36,148 nucleotides of DNA, from IMG/VR virus record IMGVR_UViG_3300031963_000465, positions 1 through 36,148 of that record. One strand, given 5' to 3'. The notes below the pieces were generated by a model that saw only the letters and a list, made by a program, of their open reading frames with translations, ran no database searches and was not told the DNA's origin. Source of the DNA: a virus. Numbering within the stretch: the stretch's first letter is position 1; each line of letters starts with the position of its first letter. The position numbers and the translations under genes are program-made. Positions 4,820-36,148 of this stretch are shown in pieces.

Positions 4820-4995
4820 TATTTGTCTTTGTCTGTTGAATAGAAGCCTGATCCCCTGAACGAAAGAGGAGGAGAGGACCAGACCCTATTCATCATTTCG
4901 CCACACGAGCAGAAGGGGTTGCTCGCTTCAGCGTGGATAGACCTATCAACTTCGGAGGTTAGCTGACAGGTCGGACACTTGTATTCATAAATCAC
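4819..4995 (-). CDS. FmdB-family zinc-ribbon protein
   Basis: This 58-residue protein begins MIYEYKCPTCQ. Cysteines at 7, 10, 29 and 31 form the zinc ribbon, and the C-terminus FRGSGFYSTD matches the conserved tail of FmdB-type putative regulatory proteins. The GTG start overlaps the sigma-like gene stop (GTGA). The stop codon lies in the right arm edge of the terminator. The second CxxC is reduced to CxC, a small departure from the usual family pattern. Probable transcriptional or protein-binding accessory factor; the family's biochemistry is poorly known. Confidence 0.75.
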   Translation of the reverse strand: MIYEYKCPTCQLTSEVDRSIHAEASNPFCSCGEMMNRVWSSPPLSFRGSGFYSTDKDK

Positions 4996-5624
4996 TGATA
5001 AGGACTTTCGCCACCAAGATTATTCTGTAATCTGCGTAGAGAGTTCTGACATCTACGATCAGCAGTAGAGGTAGCACACTCTAGGTAGGTAGCTAACTCT
5101 TGGAGTGTAAGGTTCTCGTGGTATCTCTTGATGAGAATATCTTTGTCCATCACATCTAGTTTGAGGTACGCCTTCTTGATATCAATGAGCGTGGCGAGCA
5201 GGTTGCCACCTTCAGCAGGAGCAGACTGCTTCTTTGGTTGCCCATCGTTGATGAGGTTTTGAGCCTGTTCTAATACTGTGTTATCTACAACGGAGGCGAT
5301 AACGTGGGGAAGAAGTTGGGCTATGACGACAGTATCGTAGAAGGCTTCATCAGTAAGTTTATATCCGCTACGAGTAGCCTTCTCCCTGCGAGCGTAGCGT
5401 TCTGCGTGACGCTTCATCTGCCACGCCATACGCTTCTCGTTGATGACTCGCTGGACTGTGTTCTCTTCCGATAGTAATTGGTTGAAGTGTTCTGCTCGTG
5501 AGTAATACCACGACCAGCACTCTTGAACTACATCTTCTCGCTCAACAAAGTTGCGGTATCTACTGAAGATAGTTCTAGCTACGCTAAAGACTATATCAGG
5601 AGCTGATGGGTGTGTTTCTGTCAT
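4992..5624 (-). CDS. Sigma-70-like RNA polymerase sigma factor
   Basis: This 210-residue protein has an N-terminal sigma region 2-like helical segment (REDVVQECWSWYYSRAEHF, around residues 29-47) and a C-terminal region 4-like helix-turn-helix (about 155-205; NLTLQELATYLECATSTADR). The linker contains low-complexity Pro/Ala. It would redirect host RNA polymerase to phage promoters, or act as a DNA-binding regulator derived from a sigma factor. It sits near the end of the replication operon, coupled to FmdB-like and small genes. Family assignment is from motif layout only. Confidence 0.7.
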   Translation of the reverse strand: MTETHPSAPDIVFSVARTIFSRYRNFVEREDVVQECWSWYYSRAEHFNQLLSEENTVQRVINEKRMAWQMKRHAERYARREKATRSGYKLTDEAFYDTVVIAQLLPHVIASVVDNTVLEQAQNLINDGQPKKQSAPAEGGNLLATLIDIKKAYLKLDVMDKDILIKRYHENLTLQELATYLECATSTADRRCQNSLRRLQNNLGGESPYQ

Positions 5625-5938: not shown

Positions 5939-6347
5939 TGGGTAGTTCAGGCCACTTCTTATCAAGCACCATAATTGCAATGGCAGAATAGTTCAGCAAG
6001 TCTATGAAAGAGTCGCGGAGGGACTCGTTGCTGGGAGAGACTTTGCTATCGAGGAGGTTATTGATGCGAGCCACCTTGTCCCACATCCGCACTCGGAGTC
6101 CATTGAGTGGGCCACCTGGACTGTGAGCGATGTTCTTCGGGCCGTAATCGTGATGCTTGCGGATGAGCAGATTTCCTGCTGTGTCAAGGACTCGCCAGAT
6201 ATCTGCGATGAACTCATCATCTACTCTCTTGTTGGTATCAGGCGACAGGTTATCGTACCAGCCTTGTAATCTATCGAGACTATTATCATCCCCATATCCA
6301 TCAATAATCTGGCTGCCTCTTGGAGATCCTTTTTCTTGCTCACTCAC
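5931..6347 (-). CDS. DUF1599/Nmad1-like protein
   Basis: This 138-residue helical protein contains KHHDYGPKN (about 63-71), GGPLNGLRVRMWDKVARI and SLRDSFIDLLNYSAIAIMVL. These segments match DUF1599-type proteins, reported near phage thymidylate synthase or nucleotide-modification genes and named nucleotide-modification-associated domain 1. A role in nucleotide pool or DNA base modification is therefore possible. No thymidylate synthase or other modification gene lies in this window. ATGA overlap with the primase gene upstream. Confidence 0.7.
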   Translation of the reverse strand: MSEQEKGSPRGSQIIDGYGDDNSLDRLQGWYDNLSPDTNKRVDDEFIADIWRVLDTAGNLLIRKHHDYGPKNIAHSPGGPLNGLRVRMWDKVARINNLLDSKVSPSNESLRDSFIDLLNYSAIAIMVLDKKWPELPND

Positions 6348-7003
6348 TTTGCTCCTCCTACTAGGTTGGCTGTTGCTTCTTTTCCATTCACCAGATAGAA
6401 GTCTGTTATGTCCATACCTGGTGGTAATTGTACGATTTGTGAGTTCGTAACCTCACCTGCGACACGCCTAGAAAACTCTGCTCCTGGGTTGGTGCCATCA
6501 TCTTTCACATCATTGTCTCCGAGAATATACACAACATCAAAGCCACCGAATAGTTTGGGATAGAAAGGTTTCCACGCCGCTACTCCAGGTACTCCTACTG
6601 CTGGTACACCACAGACTGCATCCATAATAATCGCATCGAACTCACCTTCACAGATGACGATGCTCTTGGTTGCAGACATTGTAGCTACAACATTGAACAG
6701 GTGAGTCTTCTGTCCTACTGGTGAGCCATACTTTGGCTTGCCATCATCAAGCCTGCGGAACTTGAAACCTACACATAAATCTAAAGCGGTGAAGTAGGGT
6801 ATGGAAATCCAACCCTCATATCCTTGATGCCCTTCTATCGGATCTGTGATAGTTCCTAATCGGTAGCGAGCTGCTACCTCTTCAGATATTCCACGTCCTG
6901 CGAGATAGGCTAGAGCCTCGTCGCTTATTGCCTCCGCGTAATGGTGAGCCGCCTCCTGTAACGATTTCGCCTGCTCTTGCGAGAGCATCTTTGAACCCCA
7001 CAT
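6344..7003 (-). CDS. DNA primase, TOPRIM catalytic subunit (split primase)
   Basis: This 219-residue protein carries the primase core. An N-terminal helical region is followed by YRLG and KFRRLDDG segments. A TOPRIM fold follows with catalytic Glu119 (ICEGEFDA) and the Asp pair D163/D165 (LGDND). LPPGMDITDFYL is typical of phage DnaG C-termini. It should synthesise RNA primers for replication. The zinc finger is encoded separately just upstream in another frame, with a 122-nt overlap. An alternative start is the ATG at 6988. No helicase domain is fused. Confidence 0.88.
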   Translation of the reverse strand: MWGSKMLSQEQAKSLQEAAHHYAEAISDEALAYLAGRGISEEVAARYRLGTITDPIEGHQGYEGWISIPYFTALDLCVGFKFRRLDDGKPKYGSPVGQKTHLFNVVATMSATKSIVICEGEFDAIIMDAVCGVPAVGVPGVAAWKPFYPKLFGGFDVVYILGDNDVKDDGTNPGAEFSRRVAGEVTNSQIVQLPPGMDITDFYLVNGKEATANLVGGAK

Positions 7004-7259
7004 TCTCTAATTCCATTATGACATTGACTGCATTGCCACCCTTGCCACAGGTGTGACAGTAATACAAGTTGTTGTATGTATCTATGACTGCACTCTTGCG
7101 AGAGTCATCGTGCATACAGCAACGCACTGAGACGTTGCGTCCCTCTTTCACTTCTCCTCCGAAGTGTCTTACTACCTCTGCTATGGAGACTGAGTTTGCA
7201 TCTGAGTTGGTCTTTGACCTCTTCGCACGAACCACCCTGGACCAGTCTTGTGCTGGCAT
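6882..7259 (-). CDS. DNA primase, CHC2 zinc-finger subunit (split primase)
   Basis: This 125-residue protein has the DnaG-type zinc ligands C47-x2-H50 and C68-x2-C71 (CHTCGKGG), then FKDALARAGEI. The Gly/Arg-rich tail looks like a genuine C-terminus rather than a frame-shifted remnant. It recognises template trinucleotides for the TOPRIM subunit. The first 79 nt overlap the upstream small zinc gene. The downstream subunit is one base ahead in frame, so a programmed frameshift giving one fused protein is an alternative. Confidence 0.85.
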   Translation of the reverse strand: MPAQDWSRVVRAKRSKTNSDANSVSIAEVVRHFGGEVKEGRNVSVRCCMHDDSRKSAVIDTYNNLYYCHTCGKGGNAVNVIMELENVGFKDALARAGEIVTGGGSPLRGGNKRRGSSLSRRTWNI

Positions 7260-7641: not shown

Positions 7642-7994
7642 CACTTACTCCTATCTTGTAACCATTGGTCTAGGTCTTGGATTACCCAAGCCTTCTCTAC
7701 TCCGTGTTGTCTGCGTTTGACTATGACGAAGGCTGGTGGGTTGACGGGTAGTCCACGAGCCTTCGCATAGTTGGCTGCCTCAGTCTGAGCTTCTGCCCAG
7801 AACTGCGGAAGATTGATTGACTTACGGTTCTTACACTCCAGAATATAGGTCTGACCTGCGATTATGGTAACGATGTCACCTTCATCATTAGATCCCGCCT
7901 TGGCTAGGCGCTCAGCAAAGTGTCCAAGTTTCCTCAAGTATTTCATTACATCCGTCTCAAACTTGGAACCCTTTTGCTTATTGTATGAACTCAC
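7641..7994 (-). CDS. Holliday-junction-resolvase-like PD-(D/E)XK nuclease
   Basis: This 117-residue protein begins MSSYNKQKGSKFETDVMKYL. Putative active-site residues are E13, D40 (GSNDEGDI), E53 and K55 (YILECKN), the Hjc/VRR-type arrangement. It would resolve branched recombination or replication intermediates. It overlaps the upstream ATPase gene by 4 nt, which supports a recombination role. A restriction-like nicking enzyme is a less likely alternative. Confidence 0.78.
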   Translation of the reverse strand: MSSYNKQKGSKFETDVMKYLRKLGHFAERLAKAGSNDEGDIVTIIAGQTYILECKNRKSINLPQFWAEAQTEAANYAKARGLPVNPPAFVIVKRRQHGVEKAWVIQDLDQWLQDRSK

Positions 7995-8824
7995 AAAGCC
8001 CTCGCTAAGTTAGAGTTATAGACCATCCTGCCGTAAGCATCAGCGTCAGATATCTGGCAGGTAGCAAAGTTTACGAATAAACCTGCCCAATCCTTGCCAT
8101 CAACTGAATGCTTTCCGAAACGATTCTTTACGGCTGCAACCCTAAGCGTATGCTCAAACGGGTTGTAACCCAGCGTGAGTATCAGAGCTGGTAGTTGAGA
8201 TACCTTACCTTGGATTGCTCGTCGGTGCGGTGGCTCAGTCATAGATCCGTACTCAGTCTGTTCTGATACGTGATGCAGAACAACGACACAGGCTTCTGTC
8301 TTGCGTGCCATATCGTGTAGCTCCACCATTATCTGGCGTAAGCCTGCCCACTCATTATCAGATTCAGCGATGACATTCATCAGGTTATCTACGACTATCA
8401 ACTGTGGTGCGATGCCATAGAGTTCAATGTAAGCCTTTACCTCTGCCTCAATATCATCAAGGTTTGGTGATGAATCAAAGACCCACTGTATGTGTGATAT
8501 AGCCTGTAGATTTTCTTCATAAGCATCAGGGTTGATACTCATTTGATTCTCTACAGTTTCTTGGGTGTGACCTGCTAGATGTGCTGCAGCACGCAACATC
8601 ACCGTAGCAGTATCGGTATCTGCAGAAAAGAACAGAGTAGGCACCTTGGCCTTGATAGCGTACACAAGAGCGAACATAGACTTTCCAGCGTTAGGTGCAG
8701 CGGCAACCATACACACTTGACCACGCCGAAACTTTATGCCTTTAGTATCTAAGTCTTTCCACACAGTCGGAAGTGGCTGCGCCAATGTATGGGCAGTCTT
8801 CCAAGCGCGGTCTAACCTAAGCAC
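7991..8824 (-). CDS. RecA/DnaB-type ATPase (putative replicative helicase or recombinase)
   Basis: This 277-residue protein has Walker A APNAGKSM (residues 43-50), a strand-capping segment LFFSADTD and Walker B LIVVDNLMN (D146). A sensor-like segment VVVLHHVSE and a C-terminal KNRFG follow, the layout of DnaB C-terminal domains. The family's N-terminal primase-binding domain is missing, so it is shorter than a usual DnaB. Two small primase subunits encoded in the same operon would be natural partners. A RecA-like recombination ATPase cannot be excluded. Confidence 0.82.
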   Translation of the reverse strand: MLRLDRAWKTAHTLAQPLPTVWKDLDTKGIKFRRGQVCMVAAAPNAGKSMFALVYAIKAKVPTLFFSADTDTATVMLRAAAHLAGHTQETVENQMSINPDAYEENLQAISHIQWVFDSSPNLDDIEAEVKAYIELYGIAPQLIVVDNLMNVIAESDNEWAGLRQIMVELHDMARKTEACVVVLHHVSEQTEYGSMTEPPHRRAIQGKVSQLPALILTLGYNPFEHTLRVAAVKNRFGKHSVDGKDWAGLFVNFATCQISDADAYGRMVYNSNLARAL

Positions 8825-9077
8825 TTTCCTCCCGTCGTAAAACTATTCTTCTTTGTTTTCTTATCTGCTTTCGATGTGCCTCTGTAAGGCCACCCCAGAT
8901 TCCGTAACGCTCGTTATGGATACCCCATTCTGCACACTCAGCTTGATGGATACAGTTGTTACATATACTTCGAGCGAAGTGCGTTTCAGGCTTGCTTCCT
9001 TGCCCTGGTTCTGGAAACCAGAAGTCGCTACCTGATTGAGCGCAGAGAGGATCCTCGAATTCACGAGGCTCTCGCAT
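8817..9077 (-). CDS. whiB: WhiB-family iron-sulfur regulator
   Basis: This 86-residue protein has the four cluster-ligating cysteines C12, C39, C42 and C48 (CxxC-x5-C), the turn motif GIWGG (59-63) and a basic C-terminal region (RKQIRKQRR) for DNA contact. WhiB-like proteins are specific to Actinobacteria and their phages and bind the host primary sigma factor. They can switch host transcription or block superinfection, as described for mycobacteriophage TM4 WhiB. A GTG at 9119 gives a 100-residue alternative overlapping the upstream gene; the ATG is preferred because it leaves no long overlap. Confidence 0.9.
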   Translation of the reverse strand: MREPREFEDPLCAQSGSDFWFPEPGQGSKPETHFARSICNNCIHQAECAEWGIHNERYGIWGGLTEAHRKQIRKQRRIVLRREESA

Positions 9078-9081
9078 TGGG

Positions 9082-9450
9082 TCATCGGACCCAGATAGTT
9101 TGGCACTTATCTGTAGCACCCTTTGGTGCGCTACACATATAACCTTTCCAAGGACCCTTAGCGCTTACGCCTTCTTTGTAAGCCATCGGTCCGTGCTTAC
9201 AGAAGTTACCTGACCCAACAGGAGCAATAGTTGGTGCAGGCGCAGATGCTACTGGCGCAGCACTTGGTACGGGCGCAGCAACTCTAGCGCCTGAGAATGA
9301 TTGGCTAACGCTTCCAATGAGGGCAGAAAAGTCCTGCGCTGTTGATAACAGCGCCTCAAGTTCTTCCTTATTCGCAGCGTACAAATTGATAAGAGTTCCA
9401 TCTGGTGCTTTGAAATTCACCTGAAACTTTGTTGACTCTGGTGCAGCCAT
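9082..9450 (-). CDS. Zinc-ribbon protein with Ala/Pro linker (recombination-associated)
   Basis: This 122-residue protein has an N-terminal beta/alpha domain (KFQVNFKAPDG, NKEELEALL) and a long Ala/Pro/Val linker (about 55-80). A C-terminal zinc ribbon follows with ligands in CKHGPM, GYMC and KCQTIW. Similar three-part proteins occur beside Cas4-like nuclease genes in actinophages. A single-strand DNA-binding or recombination-mediator role is possible by context only. Its stop and the exonuclease start are tightly coupled. Confidence 0.7.
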   Translation of the reverse strand: MAAPESTKFQVNFKAPDGTLINLYAANKEELEALLSTAQDFSALIGSVSQSFSGARVAAPVPSAAPVASAPAPTIAPVGSGNFCKHGPMAYKEGVSAKGPWKGYMCSAPKGATDKCQTIWVR

Positions 9451-10388
9451 TATTTGTCTCCAGTCTTTTTGATGGAAAGCCTTGCGCTTTCCTTCCCTTG
9501 TTTCATCGGCACGAAGCCTAGTGCTTTCTCCACTGCTTCCTTGTCGATGGTATTACTCTGAACAGTAGACCACTTGATCTCGTATCCAGTAGTAGTAACT
9601 CCAGTTTTACCAAGCAACTTATCGCGTAGTGCTTGTTTCTTTTCTTCTAATGTTTTTATTTCGGTGTCTATCTGCGTGTAATGCAGTGCATCCATCGCAG
9701 CTTCAAAGTCATCAAGCTGAGGTAACTCAGACTTGGTAAGTCCTTTTTTTATACCAACGCATCCCATCTCACCAGAGGCATCATAGAATTTGCAGTAGCT
9801 CTGACAGTAGCTCTCGTGCCTTTCGGGCGCAGGAGCGTCAGTCATAGTCCGAATCGCTGCTAACCAATTCAGAGCCTCTAGTGCGATGGCCTCGTCATAT
9901 GGCTCGGAGTGAACAAGAATATCTCGCTCATCTCCGTCACGAGGTATAGCTACTAGGTTCACGTTCTGGACCTTCCCCAAGCCAGACTTAGAGATCAGGT
10001 AGCCATAGACTTGTACTTGCCAGCGTTGCTGTTCTGACGGAAAGTAAGAAAGGTTCTTGACTTTCGTAGTCTTCCAGTCAACGACATCCCCTGTCCCAGG
10101 AATGAAGCAATCAACGTGGGCCTTCATACCGTCAAACTCAACGGTCTTCTCCAGAAGGACCTCTTGATTCTCTGCAAGTGCATTCTCTATTGCAGCGTGA
10201 ATGGCAGTCCCCATAATCGCTGCGAGTTTTATCTCGTTGTCATTGGTTTCAGGTTGACCATTCAACCGATACCACACCTTGCGTCTACATCCACCGAGTT
10301 CTGATGGACCGATTTGAACTTGCGTGGACCTGCCGCGCTTGTTCTCTTTCTCGTGAAGAGCCTTTACAAGTAGTTCTTTGATATCCAT
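9450..10388 (-). CDS. Cas4/RecB-like PD-(D/E)XK exonuclease
   Basis: This 312-residue protein contains GTAIHAAIE (H64), HVDC (D93), DWKT (D104, K106) and QVQVYGYL (124-131), the RecB nuclease signature. Cysteines C34, C196, C200 and C211 are placed as in the iron-sulfur cluster of Cas4/AddB nucleases. A charged helical C-terminal domain follows (IKTLEEKKQALRDKLLG). Probable 5'-3' exonuclease for recombination or replication. No CRISPR locus is nearby, so this is a phage replication enzyme rather than an adaptation protein. Confidence 0.87.
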   Translation of the reverse strand: MDIKELLVKALHEKENKRGRSTQVQIGPSELGGCRRKVWYRLNGQPETNDNEIKLAAIMGTAIHAAIENALAENQEVLLEKTVEFDGMKAHVDCFIPGTGDVVDWKTTKVKNLSYFPSEQQRWQVQVYGYLISKSGLGKVQNVNLVAIPRDGDERDILVHSEPYDEAIALEALNWLAAIRTMTDAPAPERHESYCQSYCKFYDASGEMGCVGIKKGLTKSELPQLDDFEAAMDALHYTQIDTEIKTLEEKKQALRDKLLGKTGVTTTGYEIKWSTVQSNTIDKEAVEKALGFVPMKQGKESARLSIKKTGDK

Positions 10389-10389
10389 A

Positions 10390-10587
10390 TCAAGCCCCTG
10401 AGATATATTCGCGTGTGAACCAACGAGTCAATGTTACATTGAAAAACAAAAAGTTCAACTGAAACACTTTTGCTCTCCTAATATTTGTCGGATACATATA
10501 GATGATGTAGTAATCAAAACCCAGAGCAAAGTTCTCTAGGGTATGTTTGTTCACGTGAAGGGTGAACGATTTGAAATCTTTATACAT
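10390..10587 (-). CDS. Small aromatic AT-rich hypothetical protein
   Basis: This 65-residue protein has many aromatic residues (FDYYIIYMYPT, FQLNFLFFNVTLTRW), probably a small beta sheet. Base composition is more AT-rich than its neighbours, which could mean recent acquisition. The start overlaps the stop of the Ntn-hydrolase gene by one base (TAATG) and it ends two bases before the exonuclease start. Function unknown. Confidence 0.6.
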   Translation of the reverse strand: MYKDFKSFTLHVNKHTLENFALGFDYYIIYMYPTNIRRAKVFQLNFLFFNVTLTRWFTREYISGA

Positions 10588-11150
10588 TACAGCTCCCGTC
10601 TCTGAGTAACTAATTGAATCGGAGGACAGGTATTGATGTCAAGCATCGAGGCTATCTGAACGGCTTTCTCGGCGTGTTGGTCTACATTGCCCATAGTGAG
10701 ACGGCCCACGCGGTCATAAAGATAACCAAGAGCAAACTGCCCACCACTACCAAGTCCATAAATATTGGCGGACGACTGGATGAACGAGAGGTCCGTCGCA
10801 ATATGGAAGAGGTTGCCATCAAACGAAACAAGGTAGTCGAACCCTGCGTCTTTTTCTTTTGTCGATTCATACGGATCATATCCATTCTCCTTGAACGCCG
10901 TGATGATGGATGGCATTACCTTGGTACCCATCCACTGAACAGGGTTAGCTCCTTTGTATACAGGTGGTTTCCAGTTGTAGGCAAGGATGTCACCAGGACG
11001 TGAGTCACCTGTGATACCTAGCAGGTACTTACCGACGTGAATTATTTTCGGAGTGGATGTGCTAACGGTCCTCAAGTTATCTTCGGTAATCTGAGAATCT
11101 GCAGCTAATACAACTCGATCTTCGAGTTGCACACCAACCAATGTTGTCAT
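10587..11150 (-). CDS. Proteasome-beta/HslV-like Ntn hydrolase
   Basis: This 187-residue protein begins MTTLVGVQLEDRVVLAADSQ. After Met removal the first residue is Thr1, Asp17 is in place (AADSQ) and a Lys at 34 (TPKI) corresponds to proteasome Lys33 with one inserted residue. KYLLGITGDS and YGLGSGGQFALGYL match the later strands, including the GSGG seen in HslV. It should be a threonine peptidase forming rings. No cognate ATPase is in this window. The start is fixed by the need for an N-terminal Thr, so the longer upstream frame to 11351 is not used. Confidence 0.82.
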   Translation of the reverse strand: MTTLVGVQLEDRVVLAADSQITEDNLRTVSTSTPKIIHVGKYLLGITGDSRPGDILAYNWKPPVYKGANPVQWMGTKVMPSIITAFKENGYDPYESTKEKDAGFDYLVSFDGNLFHIATDLSFIQSSANIYGLGSGGQFALGYLYDRVGRLTMGNVDQHAEKAVQIASMLDINTCPPIQLVTQRREL

Positions 11151-11887: not shown

Positions 11888-11923
11888 AAAAAGAGGCCCC
11901 ATCACCTTTCGGTGACAGGGCCT
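11888..11923 (-). terminator. Terminator between converging operons
   Basis: AGGCCC (11894-11899) pairs with GGGCCT (11918-11923), and inside it TCACC (11902-11906) pairs with GGTGA (11911-11915) over a 4-nt loop with a small internal loop. On the minus strand the stem is followed by five T residues (11888-11892), so it mainly stops the late operon after the holin gene. On the plus strand the T-tract is weaker. Confidence 0.82.
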
Positions 11924-11946: not shown

Positions 11947-12129
11947 CTACTTACGTCCGAACTCCTTGGCAGATGAATCTAGCCACTTCAATACAGGACC
12001 AAGGAATCCTGCAAGTGCTGCAGTTCCAAGAGTCTTGATGTCAGTCTCGCCTGCTAGGTACAGAGCGATAGCAGCAGATGCTGCAGCGCGGAACCAGGTA
12101 AGCGATACCTGCTTGAGTTGTTCTTTCAT
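11947..12129 (-). CDS. Holin (r1t-type, small two-TM)
   Basis: This 60-residue protein has two hydrophobic helices (about 13-27, FRAAASAAIALYLAG; about 34-50, LGTAALAGFLGPVLKWL) and polar ends, resembling the r1t-type holin family of Gram-positive phages. It sits directly after the endolysin, with a 1-nt overlap, and is the last gene of the late operon. It should form pores in the cytoplasmic membrane to release the endolysin and time lysis. Confidence 0.78.
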   Translation of the reverse strand: MKEQLKQVSLTWFRAAASAAIALYLAGETDIKTLGTAALAGFLGPVLKWLDSSAKEFGRK

Positions 12130-12596
12130 TAGTCCTCCTTCGGACTTGATACTTCCTTCTTTTTAGGCTTCGGTGTGACCTTAGCCTTCACCTTAGCCAA
12201 GGGCTTAGGTGTTCCCAACCAAGGGAACCAAGGACTTGTATCCTTAGCACATTCTTCCTTGATGGAAATATGCAGATGTTTGACGTGTTTATTTGGTCCC
12301 GTATAAACGCGGTCCCCGCGTTCTGCAGACCAGATACGTCCACTGAAGATCAGATATGAGACTCTCTTGTCTGCCTTGAGTTTCTCGTAGATATCACCGC
12401 AATCAATCCCATTATGTGGGTCGTGAGTCAAGTCCACTGCGTGACCTGTGTTGTGGTCAGAGTTAGGGTTTTGGTGTATGTGCGCCTTGCTTGGTAGTAG
12501 GCCATCCGATGCTTTCTTGCGCTTGGGAACAAGCGCAGTTGCCTGCCGTAGAACGGCAACAGCGGCAGGTGTTGCACTCTTTGCAAGTGGTTTCAT
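12129..12596 (-). CDS. Endolysin, M15-type peptidase
   Basis: This 155-residue protein has the metallopeptidase motif SDHNTGHAVDL (zinc ligands H48 and D55) and HVKHLHIS with the third ligand at H107 or H109, as in VanY/M15 L,D- or D,D-peptidases. A Lys/Pro-rich C-terminal tail (KPLAKVKAKVTPKPKKK) probably binds anionic wall polymers. No signal peptide is present, so it needs the adjacent holin. It cleaves peptidoglycan cross-link peptides at the end of infection. Confidence 0.87.
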   Translation of the reverse strand: MKPLAKSATPAAVAVLRQATALVPKRKKASDGLLPSKAHIHQNPNSDHNTGHAVDLTHDPHNGIDCGDIYEKLKADKRVSYLIFSGRIWSAERGDRVYTGPNKHVKHLHISIKEECAKDTSPWFPWLGTPKPLAKVKAKVTPKPKKKEVSSPKED

Positions 12597-18101: not shown

Positions 18102-19004
18102 TTACTTGGTGTAGTGGATACGAATTGGATACTTGTCAGCTAACTTCAATGCTTCGTCATTGAGTCTCTGCTGGAATAAAGCAAAGACATAACGAGAAGC
18201 AGAAGCACCAGAGTTGTATGGGTTCTTGGTGTCATTGAGGTCAGCCTCAGCGCTGGATAGATTGATACGACCAGCGTCAACGAATGATAGAAGTCTGTAG
18301 CAGGCACCTAGGACTGTTACATCGTATGTGCTGGCTGGCAATCCTGTGACATCTTCGTAGTCATCTGTGCTGGCATCAAGGGTATTAGGTTCTGTTGTGT
18401 ACCAGACCTGCACTGTTCTACCAGGCTGAATATTCTCATAGATATTGACTGTGACATTGGTGTTGAATGTTGCGGCATTAGCCATACCATCAATTCGCCA
18501 ACGGTTGATAGGTAGCCATTCTTGGCTTGAGCCTGTGGTCTGCCACGACATAAACAGAACTGTTTCACAATCATCTGGAAGTGCATAGGTAGTCTGAGAT
18601 GCGTTGAAAGTAAAGGTTGTTGAACTTACTGCCCATAGTTTCGGGTAGTAACTGTTGATAGTGTCATTGATAGCCTTCTTGATGCTTACTTTAGGGAAGG
18701 TAGGAGCTAAGGTAACTGGGGCATATTGGCTGTGTGGTGAGGCTGTGGTGCCTTGGTATCCACGACCAAAGCCTGGGATAACATTGAGTGTATTGCTTGC
18801 TTTATCAAAGGAATCAATCCAAATCAATTCGTCGTCAATCTCAATGGTGCCTTTGGCAAGATTGGATTGCGAACCGACCTGTATCTGAGTTGACGTTGTA
18901 GTCAAGCCATTAGCGTTAGCAACGTAAGTGATGCGATCTTGACGGAGTGTGTAACCTTGTAGGTTACTCTTTACCTCGTCTATCATCTCGGACAGTGTTG
19001 GCAT
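18102..19004 (-). CDS. Putative head-tail connector or neck protein
   Basis: This 300-residue protein begins MPTLSEMIDEVKSNLQGYTL, contains beta segments (IEIDDELIWIDSFD) and KVSIKKAINDTINSYYPKLW, and ends with a helical region (YVFALFQQRLNDEALKLADKYP). Similar proteins are annotated as adaptors or minor structural proteins. It overlaps the glycosyltransferase gene by 41 nt. Adaptor role is inferred from position and fold type. Confidence 0.6.
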   Translation of the reverse strand: MPTLSEMIDEVKSNLQGYTLRQDRITYVANANGLTTTSTQIQVGSQSNLAKGTIEIDDELIWIDSFDKASNTLNVIPGFGRGYQGTTASPHSQYAPVTLAPTFPKVSIKKAINDTINSYYPKLWAVSSTTFTFNASQTTYALPDDCETVLFMSWQTTGSSQEWLPINRWRIDGMANAATFNTNVTVNIYENIQPGRTVQVWYTTEPNTLDASTDDYEDVTGLPASTYDVTVLGACYRLLSFVDAGRINLSSAEADLNDTKNPYNSGASASRYVFALFQQRLNDEALKLADKYPIRIHYTK

Positions 19005-20064
19005 TGTTTCCTTCCGTGTACCAGCCGTCTCCCCACAGGGTTAGTAGCCTGTTGAAGTATTTTTCGTATTGCTTCGCAATAACATCTACGGAGTAAAGCG
19101 ATACAGCCCTATCCCTAATTGCCTTGCGGTCTAGATTCTTGACGTTCTGTGTCGCCAAGATGAACTCTTCTACGTTACGGCATCTAAAGCCTGTAACGCC
19201 CTCTACTACAGTTTCAGTAAATGCACCCCAGTCTGTAGTAATAACTGGAGTTCCGCAGGCTTGTGACTCAATGTTCACATTGCCAAAAGGTTCTATGTAC
19301 AGAGTAGGTACAAATGTCGCAATGGCATTACCCATCAACTCTGCTCGTTGTTCAGGCCCTACTGTGCCTATGTATTCACCATAGTTCGGGATGTGCTCCC
19401 CTGGACCCGCCATAATCAACTTAGCACCAATGGTCTTGCAGATATGTGCTGCAATGTCCACGCCCTTGCGTGGAATCATTCGACCAATGTAAAGGTAATA
19501 GTCGCCTTTACCTTCGCCTAGCGGGAACATCTCAGGATCTAAGTAACCTGGAATCACCGCATCAAAGAAACTGCCATCTACTGTGGCTGCATCTTTGTGC
19601 TGTGCATAAACGCTGTGCATCCAAGCGTAGGATTCAAAGACTCGGTAGTTAGAAAATACTCCAGAGTATCCAACGCCAAACTCTACTGTCATCATATGTG
19701 GCAGAGCTAGAGCAATCGGCTGATGTGAGCCACCTGCGATAACGCAGATGAAGTCTTGCTTCTCTGCTCGCTTGCGGATTTCTGCAACAACCTTCTTGTT
19801 GAACTTCTCCCAGTGAGGCAGTCTGTAATTGAACGGTGCCTCTACATATGGCTTGTTACCTACCACGATACGTCGTTGCGTCTCAGTGATGCAGGTAATC
19901 AGTTCATCTACATCGGCTTCATTCTCTTCGCCAGCATAGAGATAAACTGTATGACCTAGACTTTTCATCATATTACAGAAGCGCCTAACCTTTTCGGTAT
20001 AGGCGCAACCTGCAAATGCTTTAGTTACTTGGGTATGTGGTAGTGCTACGACGTGGAATCTCAT
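18964..20064 (-). CDS. GT4-type glycosyltransferase
   Basis: This 366-residue protein has a GT-B fold layout: N-terminal Rossmann segment, YIGRMIPRKGVD (192-203), LIMAGPGE and the donor-binding EX7E motif E258-E266 (EPFGNVNIE) followed by ACGTPVITTDWG, all typical of GT4 retaining enzymes. It could glycosylate a virion protein such as the collagen-like fibre, or modify host surface sugars to block re-infection. No clear ribosome site precedes it; a leaderless-type promoter is possible. It overlaps the downstream connector-like gene by 41 nt. Confidence 0.88.
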   Translation of the reverse strand: MRFHVVALPHTQVTKAFAGCAYTEKVRRFCNMMKSLGHTVYLYAGEENEADVDELITCITETQRRIVVGNKPYVEAPFNYRLPHWEKFNKKVVAEIRKRAEKQDFICVIAGGSHQPIALALPHMMTVEFGVGYSGVFSNYRVFESYAWMHSVYAQHKDAATVDGSFFDAVIPGYLDPEMFPLGEGKGDYYLYIGRMIPRKGVDIAAHICKTIGAKLIMAGPGEHIPNYGEYIGTVGPEQRAELMGNAIATFVPTLYIEPFGNVNIESQACGTPVITTDWGAFTETVVEGVTGFRCRNVEEFILATQNVKNLDRKAIRDRAVSLYSVDVIAKQYEKYFNRLLTLWGDGWYTEGNNANTVRDDRRGKE

Positions 20065-29267: not shown

Positions 29268-32200
29268 TTAGTCTCCTCTCAAGAAGTTACTAAACAGGAT
29301 GTCATAGACACCGCTAGCGTTTGGATTTGAAGCTGCAATATCTTGCATTTCAGCAAGTGTTGCTGTACGAAGAATCTCACGTGCATTGATGTCTGATTCG
29401 CTACGGCTGTTATAGACCGTATCAATCTGCAACTTGTAGTCATCGTATAGTTGGACCATCTTGCGGATAGCATTAGCCGCTGGTGAAACTATCTTGGTTT
29501 CATCAAGCATTGTTTTGAGATCTTTATAGGCAGCCATACGCTTGACGTTGTTAGCTGCAGAGTTAGCAAACTCTTCTTGCAGAAGCGGTCTGGTCTGCTT
29601 GAACTCTCTAGACCAAGCGTCCCAAGCCTCATTGAGTTGCTTGCGCTCGCGGTCGGTTCTGACATTCTGAAGCGCCTCTTCATACTTATCGCGCTGAATG
29701 TAATAGAACTGCTTGGACTTTGCTACAAAAGTTTCCTTGAGGAAGTCACCAACGAGTTTAGTCTCGCGGTATCCATTGTCCTTGAGGAACTGGTAGGCCT
29801 CCCACGAGAATGTTCCAGACTGTGGTATCAAGAATGCTGCACCTTCTGGATATTTCTTGATAAGTTCGCTGTTGTCGTCGACCCAGTTTGCTGCCGCATT
29901 GGATGTCTTGACTCGTGCTTGGAATACAGGGTCAGATTCGTTGATAACATACGGAACTTGCTCTGGGTAATACTTGACCCAATCTGCCATAGCATTTCCA
30001 ACAGGATCATTGGTATCGCTGTATTGGTCAATCAACTTGGAGAATACTTGCTTGAAGTTGACGCGACCATTATCACGAACCCAGTCAGCCATATCGCTCT
30101 TGAGCGTTGTGGTTGGTGATGCTGGCGAAATAAAACCTAGAACGAAACGAGTACCTAGGATTGCTGTAATAGTTGACTTCAACTTCTTCTGGTATTCAAT
30201 AAGTTCACCAGGAGTTGCTGTTGCTGATGGCGTATGACCGCCTGCCTCTAGATAGGTAACCGCCTTGCGGAAAGCTGAAGCGTATTGACTATCGCGCTCA
30301 TCCTTGTCAAGGGTAGCGAGAAGACGATTGACGTGGCCTGGCAATGCAGACTGGAAGAACGACTGTCCTTCTCCAATTTCACCAATCGTGTACTGCTCTG
30401 TTGATTTGATTTCCTTGGCAACCTTAGCCATTACAGGAATATCAGATTCAGAGAAGAATCCTGCGATGTTATAGATAGTCTTGAGTGTCAGTCCAGAAAG
30501 CGGTCCTGAGAATGTGGGTAACCACGAGTCAGGGTTTGCAGACGGTGTAAGCATCTTGAGAGATGAACCGAATTGCAATGGCATTGGCGCTACGAACTTG
30601 TCTCCAAGACCAAAGACGTTGAGCATCTTATTGACTGCACCATACGCTGGAGCCAAACCTGGATAGATGAAGTAAGCCTCACCTTGGTCGTCACGTTGAA
30701 CGAACCCTGAGTGGCTTACGCCTTCGTATGTCAAGGCAATCTTCTGTAGGGCCTCTGGGTTGTACTTGACTGTGCGGTATGCACGGCGGTAAGCATCTTC
30801 TGTTGCGCGATAGAAACGTGCAAAGTTACGCATTGACCACGCCATCTGTGTACGAACGGCTGGATTATCTACGAATGCCATCACTCGCTCAATAGCAAGG
30901 TTCTGTGACATCTCAATAATCTGCTGAGTCGCAGCCTTTTCGCCTACCTTCTTCGATAGGTCATCAAGGAATGGTTGAAGATCCTTGCGAATATCAAAAG
31001 CAGCATCAAGAACTAACTGGTCACGTGACAAACGTGCGTTTGCATCTCCAAGCCAGTCCCATAGACGGGTGTTCAAGTCAGAAATAATGTTTTTTGACTG
31101 TGTTGCTGGTATGAAAAGCGGTCCAGTAATGGTCGCTGGTACATCTGCACGACCCTTTGGTAGCCATTCAAGGCTAAACTCTTTCATATTGATAGCGTAA
31201 TCGCCATCATCCTTGAGAGTTACAAGTTTATTTAGTAGGTCATCGTTGATACTGCCATCTGCTTTACCAAGCATCGTAGCCAAATCATCATAGATGACTG
31301 CTGCGTGCTGTTGAGATGTGTATGTTTCATCAACGTAGCGGTCAAAGCGCGGCTTCAAACTAGCAATTTTCGGGTCTGTATCAATTATCTTAGCAAAAGC
31401 GTTGATGAAGCCTGTGCGGTCACCTTTATACTCAGCAAGAAGTTTCAATCCTGCAGAGCCAATCTCATCATTTGCCTTGGCTGCAATCTGGAAAGCCCAA
31501 GCAAGACGACCTTCTTGACTTAGTGGTGAAAGTTCCGTAAAGGAACCGTACGCACGCTTGTAAGCCTCGCCATCTACCTCAAAATCTACGACCTTACCGT
31601 GCTTACGGCTGAGGCGCTTTGCGCGAGAAAAGAAATCATTACCAGCATTGAGGTTGTACGCGCCTTCAGATGCACCTTTGAGAAGGTTCTCGTAGTCGCC
31701 ATACATTGCAAACTCATAGGCATAGCGGTCAAAGTCGCTACCAAACTTACCCATCTGGGCATCGTTGAAGTTTTCACGAAGTAAGGCTTCTGCCATTACC
31801 TTGCGCTTGGCTTCTTCCTTCTTGGCAGGTGATTTGAATACATCATCTACCTTATCCCAAGTCTTAGTTGTCGCATTCCAGCGTAGCTCAGATCCGCTAT
31901 CAATAGCGTTCATACGAGCCAATAGATTGTCTTTGTCCTTGGCTTTTGCATAACGGTTGAGAACTGCAAAGTTCAAATCTTCACTAGCCTGAATGACTTT
32001 CTTTGCAACACCTCTTGCCTTGACGATATCTTTCGCACTGCGAATTACGCCTCGTCCGTTAGCAAGACCGAATAAATAATCTTCGATTGCGTTACGTAGC
32101 GGGAATCGAGGACCTGCAAGAGTACCTGTTACGAATGTAGATACTGCATCATCTGCAGCCTTGGAGTATTGCATACCCCAGGCCTTTGCTAAGAACCCAT

Positions 32201-34043
32201 CACGAGCGCCAAACTTATCTAACTGCTCTGGTGTAATAAATGCTAGGCGATCATTGAGCTGATAAGCATAGGCAGCAGAATCAACACCATTGATTTGTGA
32301 TGGAATAACTCCATCTGGATTATCTGGCGTAATAGCGCGGTTAGTATAGACAGCATCGCGTCCTACTGCACCGAGAGATTCTAGAAGTTTGCGTCCACCT
32401 TGTGTGCCGCGTAGTCCACGTAGTTCACCTACAGCAGACTGTAGACCAATAAACATCTCACGACGCTGACCGATATTGGCCTGCTTGTAAGCATCGCCAA
32501 GGATACGGCTTGAGTAACGTCCATATACAAGACGTGCGTAACGCTCAAAGGCTAGCGCTGACTTCTCTGATGCGAAGTTGCCTAGTTCATCCATATCTGG
32601 AATGAGAGCAAACTTACGAGTAAAATTATCTAGACGCTTATTGATTCCAGCGATAGAGAAACGAGCAAGTTTCTGCTCTGATTCTGCCTTGGTAATGCGT
32701 TCAGCAGTTCTAGCACCTGCTGCAACAGCAGACTCGCCTTCACGTCCAAGAAGAGAACGACGTGCGGCCTCTAGGCTTGAGATGCCTTGGGCATCTGCCT
32801 CGTCAAATACGATGTTACGCAAGAAGTTTGCAGAGTCTGTATTTAGATCAAAGACTGCTCCAGCTTTGTCATAGACCGCAAGTTTAGCCTTGCGTGCTGG
32901 TGACAAGATAGGCATAACCTTGGTTCTAAAACCAGGCTGTCCATAGAAAATTGGCTCAATACGCTGGGCGTTAGAGAGAAAAGCCTTAGCAGTGTTGACA
33001 TCAAGGATTCCGCCAAAGTCTTCGTTAGCAAACTTGATGAGAGCGCTGTCTACGCCATTCTCAGCAAAGGCTGGATTGAGAGCGCGTAGGCGACCTGTTG
33101 CTTGCCCAATCTTTTCTGCGTTATTAGCAATGCGAGCGTCGCGCAAATCTTTTGTAGTCTTTGTAAACTCTGTCCAGAAGTTCTCAATGTTTCTATTCTT
33201 GAAGGCATCTTCTACCTTCTCAGCAGTACCGACCGTCTTATCAAGAGCATACTTCATACCTAGATAACCCTTGCGAGCTTTACCAAGTAAAATGGTTGGG
33301 TCTAAAACAATACGGAATGCGGCATCTGTAGTGCCTGAAATCCAAGAATAAAGTCCAGACTTACCCTCTAAGTCATCTGGCAAGAACGCATTAGCAACTT
33401 GACGACCTGGAGAATACTTAGCAGCATTGACTTTTGCTACTGCTTCTTCTGTAAGTTTGTCGCCTTCTTTAGAACCAGCGGCAAATGCAAGGGCCTTCTC
33501 ATTCTCAGTCTGTGCTTCACGAATGATTTGGTCTAGCGGAATGCCTGCAGAAATCTTCTTAGCGATATTTGTACGGTCACGACCGTAAGTCTTCTCAACT
33601 TTTTCAATTCTGCCAGGGTTGAATACCTGCTCACCATTGGCACCAGAACGCTGAAACGCATCTCCAAGATCTACGCCTTCGGAAATACCGATAGCACCAA
33701 CACGATACGCACGCGTTACTTGGTCTGATGCCCACCCTGCTGCCTTGAATACAGCCTTGATTGGTTCTACAACAGGACGCGAGATGATGTATGCGGCTTG
33801 ACCGATAAATCCACGCTTGGGATCTGTGTCATCAATACCACCAAAGAAATCTGCCTGTGCCTTTTGTTGGTCAATAGGCAACTGATTATATTCAGCAGCA
33901 CCAACAGATGGCGGCAGGTTATTGAGCCGCACGTGCTGTGAGTACATATCTGTAAGCGAGTTGATTTTCTGAGTCTGTTGAGGAGTCAGATTTGCTCGCT
34001 TAGCAGCTTGATATATATTTCCCTTATTGATGTTTTGGGACAT
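29268..34043 (-). CDS. Giant (1591-residue) putative ejected virion protein
   Basis: This is the largest gene of the window. It begins MSQNINKGNIYQAAKRANLT and is mostly helical, with a hydrophobic segment near 80-110 (GFIGQAAYIISRPVVEPI). No peptidoglycan hydrolase, protease or polymerase motif was recognised. Size, helical content and position after the portal resemble the large internal or ejection proteins of podoviruses, which enter the host with DNA. A tape-measure role is an alternative but is less supported because no tail-tube gene is visible. Confidence 0.6.
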   Translation of the reverse strand: MSQNINKGNIYQAAKRANLTPQQTQKINSLTDMYSQHVRLNNLPPSVGAAEYNQLPIDQQKAQADFFGGIDDTDPKRGFIGQAAYIISRPVVEPIKAVFKAAGWASDQVTRAYRVGAIGISEGVDLGDAFQRSGANGEQVFNPGRIEKVEKTYGRDRTNIAKKISAGIPLDQIIREAQTENEKALAFAAGSKEGDKLTEEAVAKVNAAKYSPGRQVANAFLPDDLEGKSGLYSWISGTTDAAFRIVLDPTILLGKARKGYLGMKYALDKTVGTAEKVEDAFKNRNIENFWTEFTKTTKDLRDARIANNAEKIGQATGRLRALNPAFAENGVDSALIKFANEDFGGILDVNTAKAFLSNAQRIEPIFYGQPGFRTKVMPILSPARKAKLAVYDKAGAVFDLNTDSANFLRNIVFDEADAQGISSLEAARRSLLGREGESAVAAGARTAERITKAESEQKLARFSIAGINKRLDNFTRKFALIPDMDELGNFASEKSALAFERYARLVYGRYSSRILGDAYKQANIGQRREMFIGLQSAVGELRGLRGTQGGRKLLESLGAVGRDAVYTNRAITPDNPDGVIPSQINGVDSAAYAYQLNDRLAFITPEQLDKFGARDGFLAKAWGMQYSKAADDAVSTFVTGTLAGPRFPLRNAIEDYLFGLANGRGVIRSAKDIVKARGVAKKVIQASEDLNFAVLNRYAKAKDKDNLLARMNAIDSGSELRWNATTKTWDKVDDVFKSPAKKEEAKRKVMAEALLRENFNDAQMGKFGSDFDRYAYEFAMYGDYENLLKGASEGAYNLNAGNDFFSRAKRLSRKHGKVVDFEVDGEAYKRAYGSFTELSPLSQEGRLAWAFQIAAKANDEIGSAGLKLLAEYKGDRTGFINAFAKIIDTDPKIASLKPRFDRYVDETYTSQQHAAVIYDDLATMLGKADGSINDDLLNKLVTLKDDGDYAINMKEFSLEWLPKGRADVPATITGPLFIPATQSKNIISDLNTRLWDWLGDANARLSRDQLVLDAAFDIRKDLQPFLDDLSKKVGEKAATQQIIEMSQNLAIERVMAFVDNPAVRTQMAWSMRNFARFYRATEDAYRRAYRTVKYNPEALQKIALTYEGVSHSGFVQRDDQGEAYFIYPGLAPAYGAVNKMLNVFGLGDKFVAPMPLQFGSSLKMLTPSANPDSWLPTFSGPLSGLTLKTIYNIAGFFSESDIPVMAKVAKEIKSTEQYTIGEIGEGQSFFQSALPGHVNRLLATLDKDERDSQYASAFRKAVTYLEAGGHTPSATATPGELIEYQKKLKSTITAILGTRFVLGFISPASPTTTLKSDMADWVRDNGRVNFKQVFSKLIDQYSDTNDPVGNAMADWVKYYPEQVPYVINESDPVFQARVKTSNAAANWVDDNSELIKKYPEGAAFLIPQSGTFSWEAYQFLKDNGYRETKLVGDFLKETFVAKSKQFYYIQRDKYEEALQNVRTDRERKQLNEAWDAWSREFKQTRPLLQEEFANSAANNVKRMAAYKDLKTMLDETKIVSPAANAIRKMVQLYDDYKLQIDTVYNSRSESDINAREILRTATLAEMQDIAASNPNASGVYDILFSNFLRGD

Positions 34044-34829: not shown

Positions 34830-36148
34830 CTACCCTGCAATAGATGCGAGTAACGTAGCAATGTCTGGACGAGAGCCAGCAGCAGGGGCCGCACCCATTT
34901 GTTCTGGAGTTGGCTGCGAGGCAGGAACGGGGGCCATACCTGCTGCTGGAACTTCTGCGCCCATTGGCACTTCTGGTTGTGGCTCTGGTGCAAAGACCTT
35001 CTCCACAATAGTCTCTAGTTGTAAACCTTTTTGACGGCCCTTGATTACTTCGGCGATTCTGGAAACGATTTGAGAAGGATCTTGACCTTGTGCTGCAATC
35101 GCTGGAATTGCCTGGGCGTACTGAGCAACAGCAACACGGAGAGAATCGCGCATCTCTTCAATATCCACACGCTGTTCTTCTTGAGTGACATTTAGCTCCA
35201 TTGGGATTTCGCGGCGTACATAATCACGTGATACAAGTTTATCGCTACGCATCTGTAGCAAAGCAATGATGGCGTTGTTTGGATTCATACCAGACATAAT
35301 GCCGTAACGAACATCTACGCCGTACTCACCAGCAATAGCTCGACTTGGTACATACTTCATATTGAATGGCGTACCGTCATCTACACCTTTGATTTCCTTG
35401 GTCATATTGCCAAAGATTTTCTCATCTGTTTCAAAGCAGAGAGAAACAAGTTCAGTAAAGAGGCGTGCAAACTGTGCTTGCGCTGCACGTACTTGTGTAT
35501 CAAAGCCAGCCTGAAGTGCTTGAACTCCACGACCTGTAATGATTGATGCGTCGATGTTACCTGAGCGTACCTCTGGATAACGAGCACCTAGACGTAGTTC
35601 ACGCTCTAGTACGCCAGATTCTGTAAAGACTCCGTTAGGAAGTTCTAGTGGAACACGGCGGATTGCCTGTGGATTAGCAGAACGCATAATCGCATCAGGG
35701 CCGAGTGCAAGTTCTTGTACATCTTGCGGAATAGCAATAGGAGCCTGAATGGATTTCTCTGCTGCTTGGATTTGCAATACTGCAAAGCGAGCACGAGCAA
35801 GTTGTACAGCCAAGATATCATCAAACTGACCGCGTGCTTCTCCATCAATAGATGAACGAACAGCCACACGTGCCATACATTTGCCAGTTGGGTTTGGCAA
35901 GTTAGATAAAACTAAGTTCTCACGATCTGGCAAGAAGACAACATCTTGGTCTTTGTCGTGGTAACGAACCATTGAGATATAAGGGCTGCCCATTGTGAAG
36001 GAAGTTCTAGGCATAATCTGAGATGCAAACTCTGGATACTGCGATGCCAATGTTTCAGCATCGGTCTGGATAACCTGAGTCAAAGAAATCGTACGACCGA
36101 ATCTGTCAATCTCTGGGTAAACGCCAAATGGATTGAGCAAGCGGATAC
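34830..36148 (-). CDS. Portal protein (partial, 5' end outside window)
   Basis: The open frame continues to the right edge and gives at least 438 residues. YPEIDRFGRTISLTQVIQT, MARVAVRSSIDG and a long helical region (about 200-260; ALQAGFDTQVRAAQAQFARL) followed by GMNPNNAIIALLQMRSDKL and a Pro/Ala-rich tail fit portal proteins that form the dodecameric DNA gate. The true start is outside the window, so an internal TTG near 36140 is not a real start. The next gene upstream, not seen, is likely the large terminase. Confidence 0.78.
   Translation of the reverse strand, partial: IRLLNPFGVYPEIDRFGRTISLTQVIQTDAETLASQYPEFASQIMPRTSFTMGSPYISMVRYHDKDQDVVFLPDRENLVLSNLPNPTGKCMARVAVRSSIDGEARGQFDDILAVQLARARFAVLQIQAAEKSIQAPIAIPQDVQELALGPDAIMRSANPQAIRRVPLELPNGVFTESGVLERELRLGARYPEVRSGNIDASIITGRGVQALQAGFDTQVRAAQAQFARLFTELVSLCFETDEKIFGNMTKEIKGVDDGTPFNMKYVPSRAIAGEYGVDVRYGIMSGMNPNNAIIALLQMRSDKLVSRDYVRREIPMELNVTQEEQRVDIEEMRDSLRVAVAQYAQAIPAIAAQGQDPSQIVSRIAEVIKGRQKGLQLETIVEKVFAPEPQPEVPMGAEVPAAGMAPVPASQPTPEQMGAAPAAGSRPDIATLLASIAG

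Follow-up and report, generated by a model that had tools for sequence, protein, structure and literature searches.

A proteasome-like N-terminal threonine protease gene at the head of the replication operon in a clade of freshwater actinophages

The stretch of viral DNA analysed here, which we call the window, comprises positions 1 to 36,148 of the IMG/VR record IMGVR_UViG_3300031963_000465, and the first gene of its leftward replication operon encodes a protein of the proteasome family, referred to below as the protease (Table 1). The reading frame opens with an ATG at 11150 on the minus strand, ends with a stop at 10589-10587 and gives the N-terminus MTTLVGVQLEDRVVLAADSQ. Its Thr (Thr1 once the Met is gone) stands at position 2 of the translation, Asp17 at 18 and Lys34, which aligns to Lys33 of HslV and the proteasome, at 35, and GSGG occupies residues 134-137; the first-pass annotation, which had proposed a phage-encoded proteasome-beta/HslV-like threonine hydrolase with an intact catalytic core, had placed all four correctly. 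A methionine that precedes such a threonine is taken off by methionine aminopeptidase, which exposes Thr1. A TTG further upstream in frame would make the protein 254 residues long; since in many relatives the frame is closed by a stop within a few codons 5' of the MTT start, we take the protease to be made without a propeptide, and these same stops led us to reject a cleavable propeptide of the actinobacterial PrcB type.

Table 1. Genes and other features of the window discussed in the text
Feature	Position	Strand	Basis or remark
Sigma factor-like protein	4992..5624	minus	
DNA primase	6344..7003	minus	preceded by primase-like 6882-7259
DnaB-like replicative helicase	7991..8824	minus	
WhiB-like regulator	8817..9119	minus	actinophage marker
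PD-(D/E)XK exonuclease (RecB/Cas4-like)	9450..10388	minus	PHROG/Pfam profile searches
65-aa gene	10390..10587	minus	directly downstream of protease; no Pfam/PHROG match
Proteasome-like (HslV/BPH-like) N-terminal threonine hydrolase, 187 aa	10587..11150	minus	profile searches, AlphaFold2 model, structure searches
Small opposite-strand gene, 78 aa	11267..11503	plus	no Pfam match
Opposite-strand gene, 127 aa	11500..11883	plus	no Pfam match; homolog in phage E7
Strong intrinsic-terminator-like hairpin	11894..11923	minus	between late/lysis transcript and protease operon
Putative peptidoglycan peptidase/endolysin	12129..12596	minus	by-eye assignment from SDHNTGHAVDLTHDP; PHROG_32486 (function unassigned), no Pfam match
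Glycosyltransferase gene	18964-20064		among tail-fibre genes
1591-aa protein	29268-34043		between portal and capsid genes; almost no database match
Portal protein	34830..36140	minus	truncated at window end

In the window clade the gene order runs from the putative endolysin through two small opposite-strand genes to the protease, the 65-aa gene, the exonuclease, WhiB, DnaB and the primase. The protease is present in 64 of 64 exonuclease-anchored relatives having enough upstream sequence. Among distinct loci of the window clade, the 78-aa opposite-strand gene stands immediately upstream of it in 44 of 52, and the 65-aa gene is its next or next-but-one neighbour in 46 of 57. The ATG of the 65-aa gene overlaps the protease stop (TAATG), so the two are probably translationally coupled, and the small protein could be an adaptor, an inhibitor or a substrate of the protease. 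Of 47 distinct relatives, 40 have upstream of the protease a hairpin comparable to that of the window but with a differing stem, in 39 cases at a distance of 396-794 nt. The earlier placement of the gene at the head of the replication operon is borne out, and the hairpins support a unit apart from the late genes. Promoter-like sites upstream of the protease did not exceed chance expectation, and it is the operon position that suggests early expression in the window. Elsewhere in the window we noted a glycosyltransferase gene, of a kind also reported for related freshwater actinophages (PMC10202952). The 1591-aa protein, whose E7 counterpart has 1764 residues, is possibly an internal or ejection protein.

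Bacteria of the 'Ca. Planktophila' group are very abundant in lakes. The phages LanE43AprE7/F5 (E7 and F5 below) were isolated on one such freshwater actinobacterium, 'Ca. Planktophila' LanE-43 (PMC10202952), and the genomes of the window and E7, of about 40 kb, are largely syntenic, with identities of 49% for the portal, 38% for the scaffold, 52% for the MCP, 43% for the helicase and 32% for the protease. In the protease tree the window and E7 sequences group with a support of 100, and the window, E7, the Dishui Lake phage DSL-LC01 with metagenomic relatives, and the Microbacterium phage Pumpernickel are joined at a bootstrap of 87. Judged by its WhiB gene and its synteny with E7, the window belongs to a known group of freshwater actinophages, and this kinship to E7/F5 is why we presume an actinobacterial host. 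A literature search on proteasomes in Nanopelagicales/Planktophila returned nothing useful, and a freshwater phage survey (PMC6802176) mentions no protease.

Computation demonstrates the proteasome-family identity, the fold and the catalytic core of the protease. It matches Pfam Proteasome (PF00227) at 30.3 bits against a cut-off of 22.4 (E = 4e-7) and, over its full length, PHROG_1040, 'peptidase HslV family' (3e-24), while a profile built from its relatives finds HslV (3e-15) and BPH, the betaproteobacterial proteasome homolog (3e-13), in the PDB. The AlphaFold2 model of the monomer (pLDDT 89, pTM 0.86) has a proteasome-like Ntn fold whose best Foldseek match is BPH (8e-12), with a VIA Z of 20.1 over 175 aligned residues at 24% identity. 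Relatives occur in at least about 600 viral contigs. Among 121 distinct homologs, which are mostly viral, Asp17 and Lys33 are invariant; at position 1, 119 have Thr, one has Ser and one a gap. The first-pass annotation had staked its reading on an Ntn fold and on retention of Thr1/Asp/Lys in homologs: the fold is predicted and the structure searches agree with it, and virtually all of the 121 retain the triad. The residues that mark membership of PF00227 (Thr/Ser1, Asp17, Lys33 and the oxyanion Gly47) are all present in the protease, and the secondary site is canonical in window-clade sequences (Gly47 and the Ser129-like, Asp166-like and Thr/Ser169-like residues). Purifying selection acts on the gene (median dN/dS of 0.10 across 88 pairs), and each of the 21 records that carry it has a single copy. 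Two scans of bacterial and archaeal genomes found no close cellular relatives.

In these otherwise syntenic genomes of about 40 kb, the protease gene occupies two sites: the head of the replication operon in the window clade and a post-portal position in the E7 clade. In the latter, which includes the cultured E7 and F5, the portal immediately precedes the protease at 53 of 54 distinct loci, in the order terminase large subunit, (small genes), portal, protease, small gene(s), giant virion protein and, further on, scaffold and MCP; the window has no protease after its own portal. The operon position had been read as an argument against a part in capsid maturation, and this stands for the window clade and fails for the group as a whole, because in the sister clade the protease directly follows the portal gene. 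This is the usual place for a maturation protease and fits a head-related role in the E7 clade, and in ten related genomes we found no Peptidase_S78 or ClpP-like prohead protease. One might propose that the protease matures the prohead or virion by a catalytic type new to that task: it would stand in for the S78/ClpP-like enzymes, be packaged in the procapsid or act on it, and cut scaffold, capsid or ejection proteins. We know of no threonine protease that does this job.

The natural distribution of the gene tells against such a role. The protease is missing from 9 of 65 portal-anchored relatives, and from the rest of their contigs, with portals about 85-87% identical; two of these contigs, of 39.9 and 37.5 kb, are nearly genome-sized, the completeness of the nine not being proven, and in comparison with E7 they have a portal 86-87%, a scaffold 65% and an MCP 68% identical. 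A prohead protease would be expected in every genome of the lineage that shares the head genes, and this gene does not follow that pattern. Because these nine portal-bearing relatives, two of them with close scaffold and MCP, lack the protease, an essential role in maturation is unlikely, loss with compensation being an alternative. The prohead-protease reading is also weakened by the place of the gene in the window clade, among replication genes and beyond the late-operon terminator, and by distant relatives located among nucleotide-metabolism genes, and overall we consider it decidedly improbable. The absence from relatives with close head genes instead makes the protease look like an exchangeable accessory gene. 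In eight of the nine protease-less relatives the post-portal site is occupied by a 76-aa gene unrelated to the protease (for example, L321:4786-5016 and L329:4786-5013), so that this position is an exchange site for one or the other; the 76-aa gene was sought in the window and not found.

We think that the protease is an accessory ring-forming threonine protease without an ATPase of its own, which acts on host or phage proteins, and we give this reading a probability of roughly 0.55; for the window lineage, host takeover or protein turnover in infection is the likely role and the one we rank first. On this reading it is one of the group I proteasome-like N-terminal threonine peptidases and belongs to a clade specific to actinophages. 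Synthesised without a propeptide, it would have its Thr1 exposed by the host methionine aminopeptidase and would probably self-assemble into a double ring like those of BPH and HslV. The ring would then cleave unfolded or specifically recruited proteins with no need of a phage unfoldase, either independently of ATP, the mode put forward for BPH, or with the help of a host AAA+ unfoldase; in the window lineage the gene would be transcribed together with the replication genes. Ring assembly, proteolytic activity, timing, substrates and role are all things that we infer. In agreement with the first-pass annotation, which had seen no partner ATPase, no AAA_2 (HslU/ClpX-type) unfoldase was matched in ten related records. 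In the model, helix 2 is followed by a 15-residue loop of lower pLDDT (residues 89-103), whose counterpart in the alignment is the long pore loop of BPH and not the short one of HslV (PMC8665760). In addition, more distant phage homologs often have genes for thymidylate synthase, DHFR, ribonucleotide reductase or PhoH close by, a setting that points to the replicative phase more than to assembly. Thymidylate synthase, for example, adjoins or neighbours the homolog in Microbacterium phage Pumpernickel, a Bacillus licheniformis plasmid, Geobacillus virus E3 and Salmonella phage S124 (L084, L221, L088 and L385), unrelated phages or phage-like plasmids in which DHFR or ribonucleotide reductase is often present too.

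Activity itself cannot be assumed, because BPH, the nearest solved relative, forms rings yet is inert on the substrates tested (PMC5777263). The same inertness would suit a highly specific Ntn enzyme, either a site-specific processing peptidase or a transpeptidase/ligase of the connectase kind, with one phage or host target that is possibly the coupled 65-aa product. Connectase is indeed a proteasome homolog turned ligase (PMC8665760), and the conserved, coupled gene downstream of the protease in the window clade points the same way; however, the model has no insertion over the active site, and the downstream gene of the E7 clade is a different one that is not always present (this 84-aa neighbour is optional, found in 10 of 56 portal-anchored loci with the protease), so that no partner gene is common to both protease clades. 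We regard so specialised an enzyme as unlikely. An inhibitor or hijacker of host proteolysis, which would co-assemble with host proteasome or HslV subunits, has in its favour the fold shared with these host proteins and the likely hosts, since proteasomes are common across the phylum Actinobacteria. However, in structure alignments the identity of the protease to M. tuberculosis PrcB is only about 16%, poisoning would not need the whole triad conserved, and the window's host may or may not have a proteasome; of the readings weighed here this is a very improbable one.

Returning to the accessory threonine protease that we favour, phage-borne proteasome homologs have been described before (Fuchs 2021; PHROG_1040), and what is new is an actinophage-specific, well-conserved clade. 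This large and distinct clade is now tied to phages cultured on 'Ca. Planktophila', and the isolated phages E7 and F5 make the role of a viral proteasome-like protease experimentally accessible. The two alternative positions, together with natural absence in close relatives, provide handles on that role through expression timing, virion content and active-site mutants. A bolder idea, which we put forward as rather improbable, is that freshwater actinophages have either adopted a self-compartmentalising threonine protease as their virion or procapsid protease, or use it as a phage-made, unfoldase-free degradation chamber with the coupled small neighbour as its adaptor.

Among known proteasome homologs, BPH (PDB 5ovs/5ovt/5ovu) is the closest structure match; like it, the phage protease has no known partner unfoldase and a loop of similar length after helix 2. 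The two differ in that identity is about 20-24%, BPH is bacterial and lacks the Arg51 (GDxR) motif that the phage proteins keep, and BPH is a homotetradecameric double ring, whereas the phage side of the comparison is known from sequence and a monomer model. With HslV (ClpQ) it shares Thr1/Asp17/Lys33/Gly47, the GSGG strand and a compact chain without the C-terminal helix 5; unlike E. coli HslV, it has Arg51, and it comes without an HslU-type ATPase. HslV identity was rejected on the NCBIfam equivalogs, which score 26.5 bits against a cut-off of 137 and 25.1 against 157.75, and on the missing partner HslU (the ten records above), a host HslU being possible. PPH, with about 140 residues and no helix H2, was also excluded, because at 187 residues the protease is too long and its model has a long helix at 70-88 after a helix at 50-58.

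The most instructive comparison is with the 22 proteasome homologs described by Fuchs et al. 2021 (PMC8665760), which include the phage-carried PPH and AAH; that survey found no actinophage with AAH and, for phage proteasome homologs, no genomic context pointing to a specific function. Like AAH and PPH, the protease is of group I, carried by phages and without a propeptide or a dedicated AAA+ partner (PMC8665760). Here our comparison with AAH rests on fetched relatives rather than on the reference sets of Fuchs et al., and most of the fetched rhizobial, Streptomyces and phage relatives, which are probably AAH or PPH, have Arg51 in common with the window protein. In those from rhizobial and Streptomyces plasmids, Moorella and Geobacillus phages and a T5-like phage, TSSFR-like motifs prevail, with position 129 mostly Cys or Ser and position 169 mostly Val. 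The window clade keeps Gly47, which is Ser in most of these relatives, and the Ser129-like and Thr/Ser169-like residues; in the tree it also branches apart from the rhizobial and Streptomyces relatives. Some relatives reside on large plasmids of legume-nodulating rhizobia and Paraburkholderia (Sinorhizobium fredii, L218:4001-4546; Paraburkholderia phymatum, L386:2001-2591), and the S. fredii homolog sits between nifQ and iron-sulfur/nifS genes. The public family that contains the protease is PHROG_1040, filed in the PHROG category 'other'. Closest to home, E7 and F5 (PMC10202952) share with the window both synteny and a homologous protease, which lies after the portal in these phages and before the exonuclease in the window clade.
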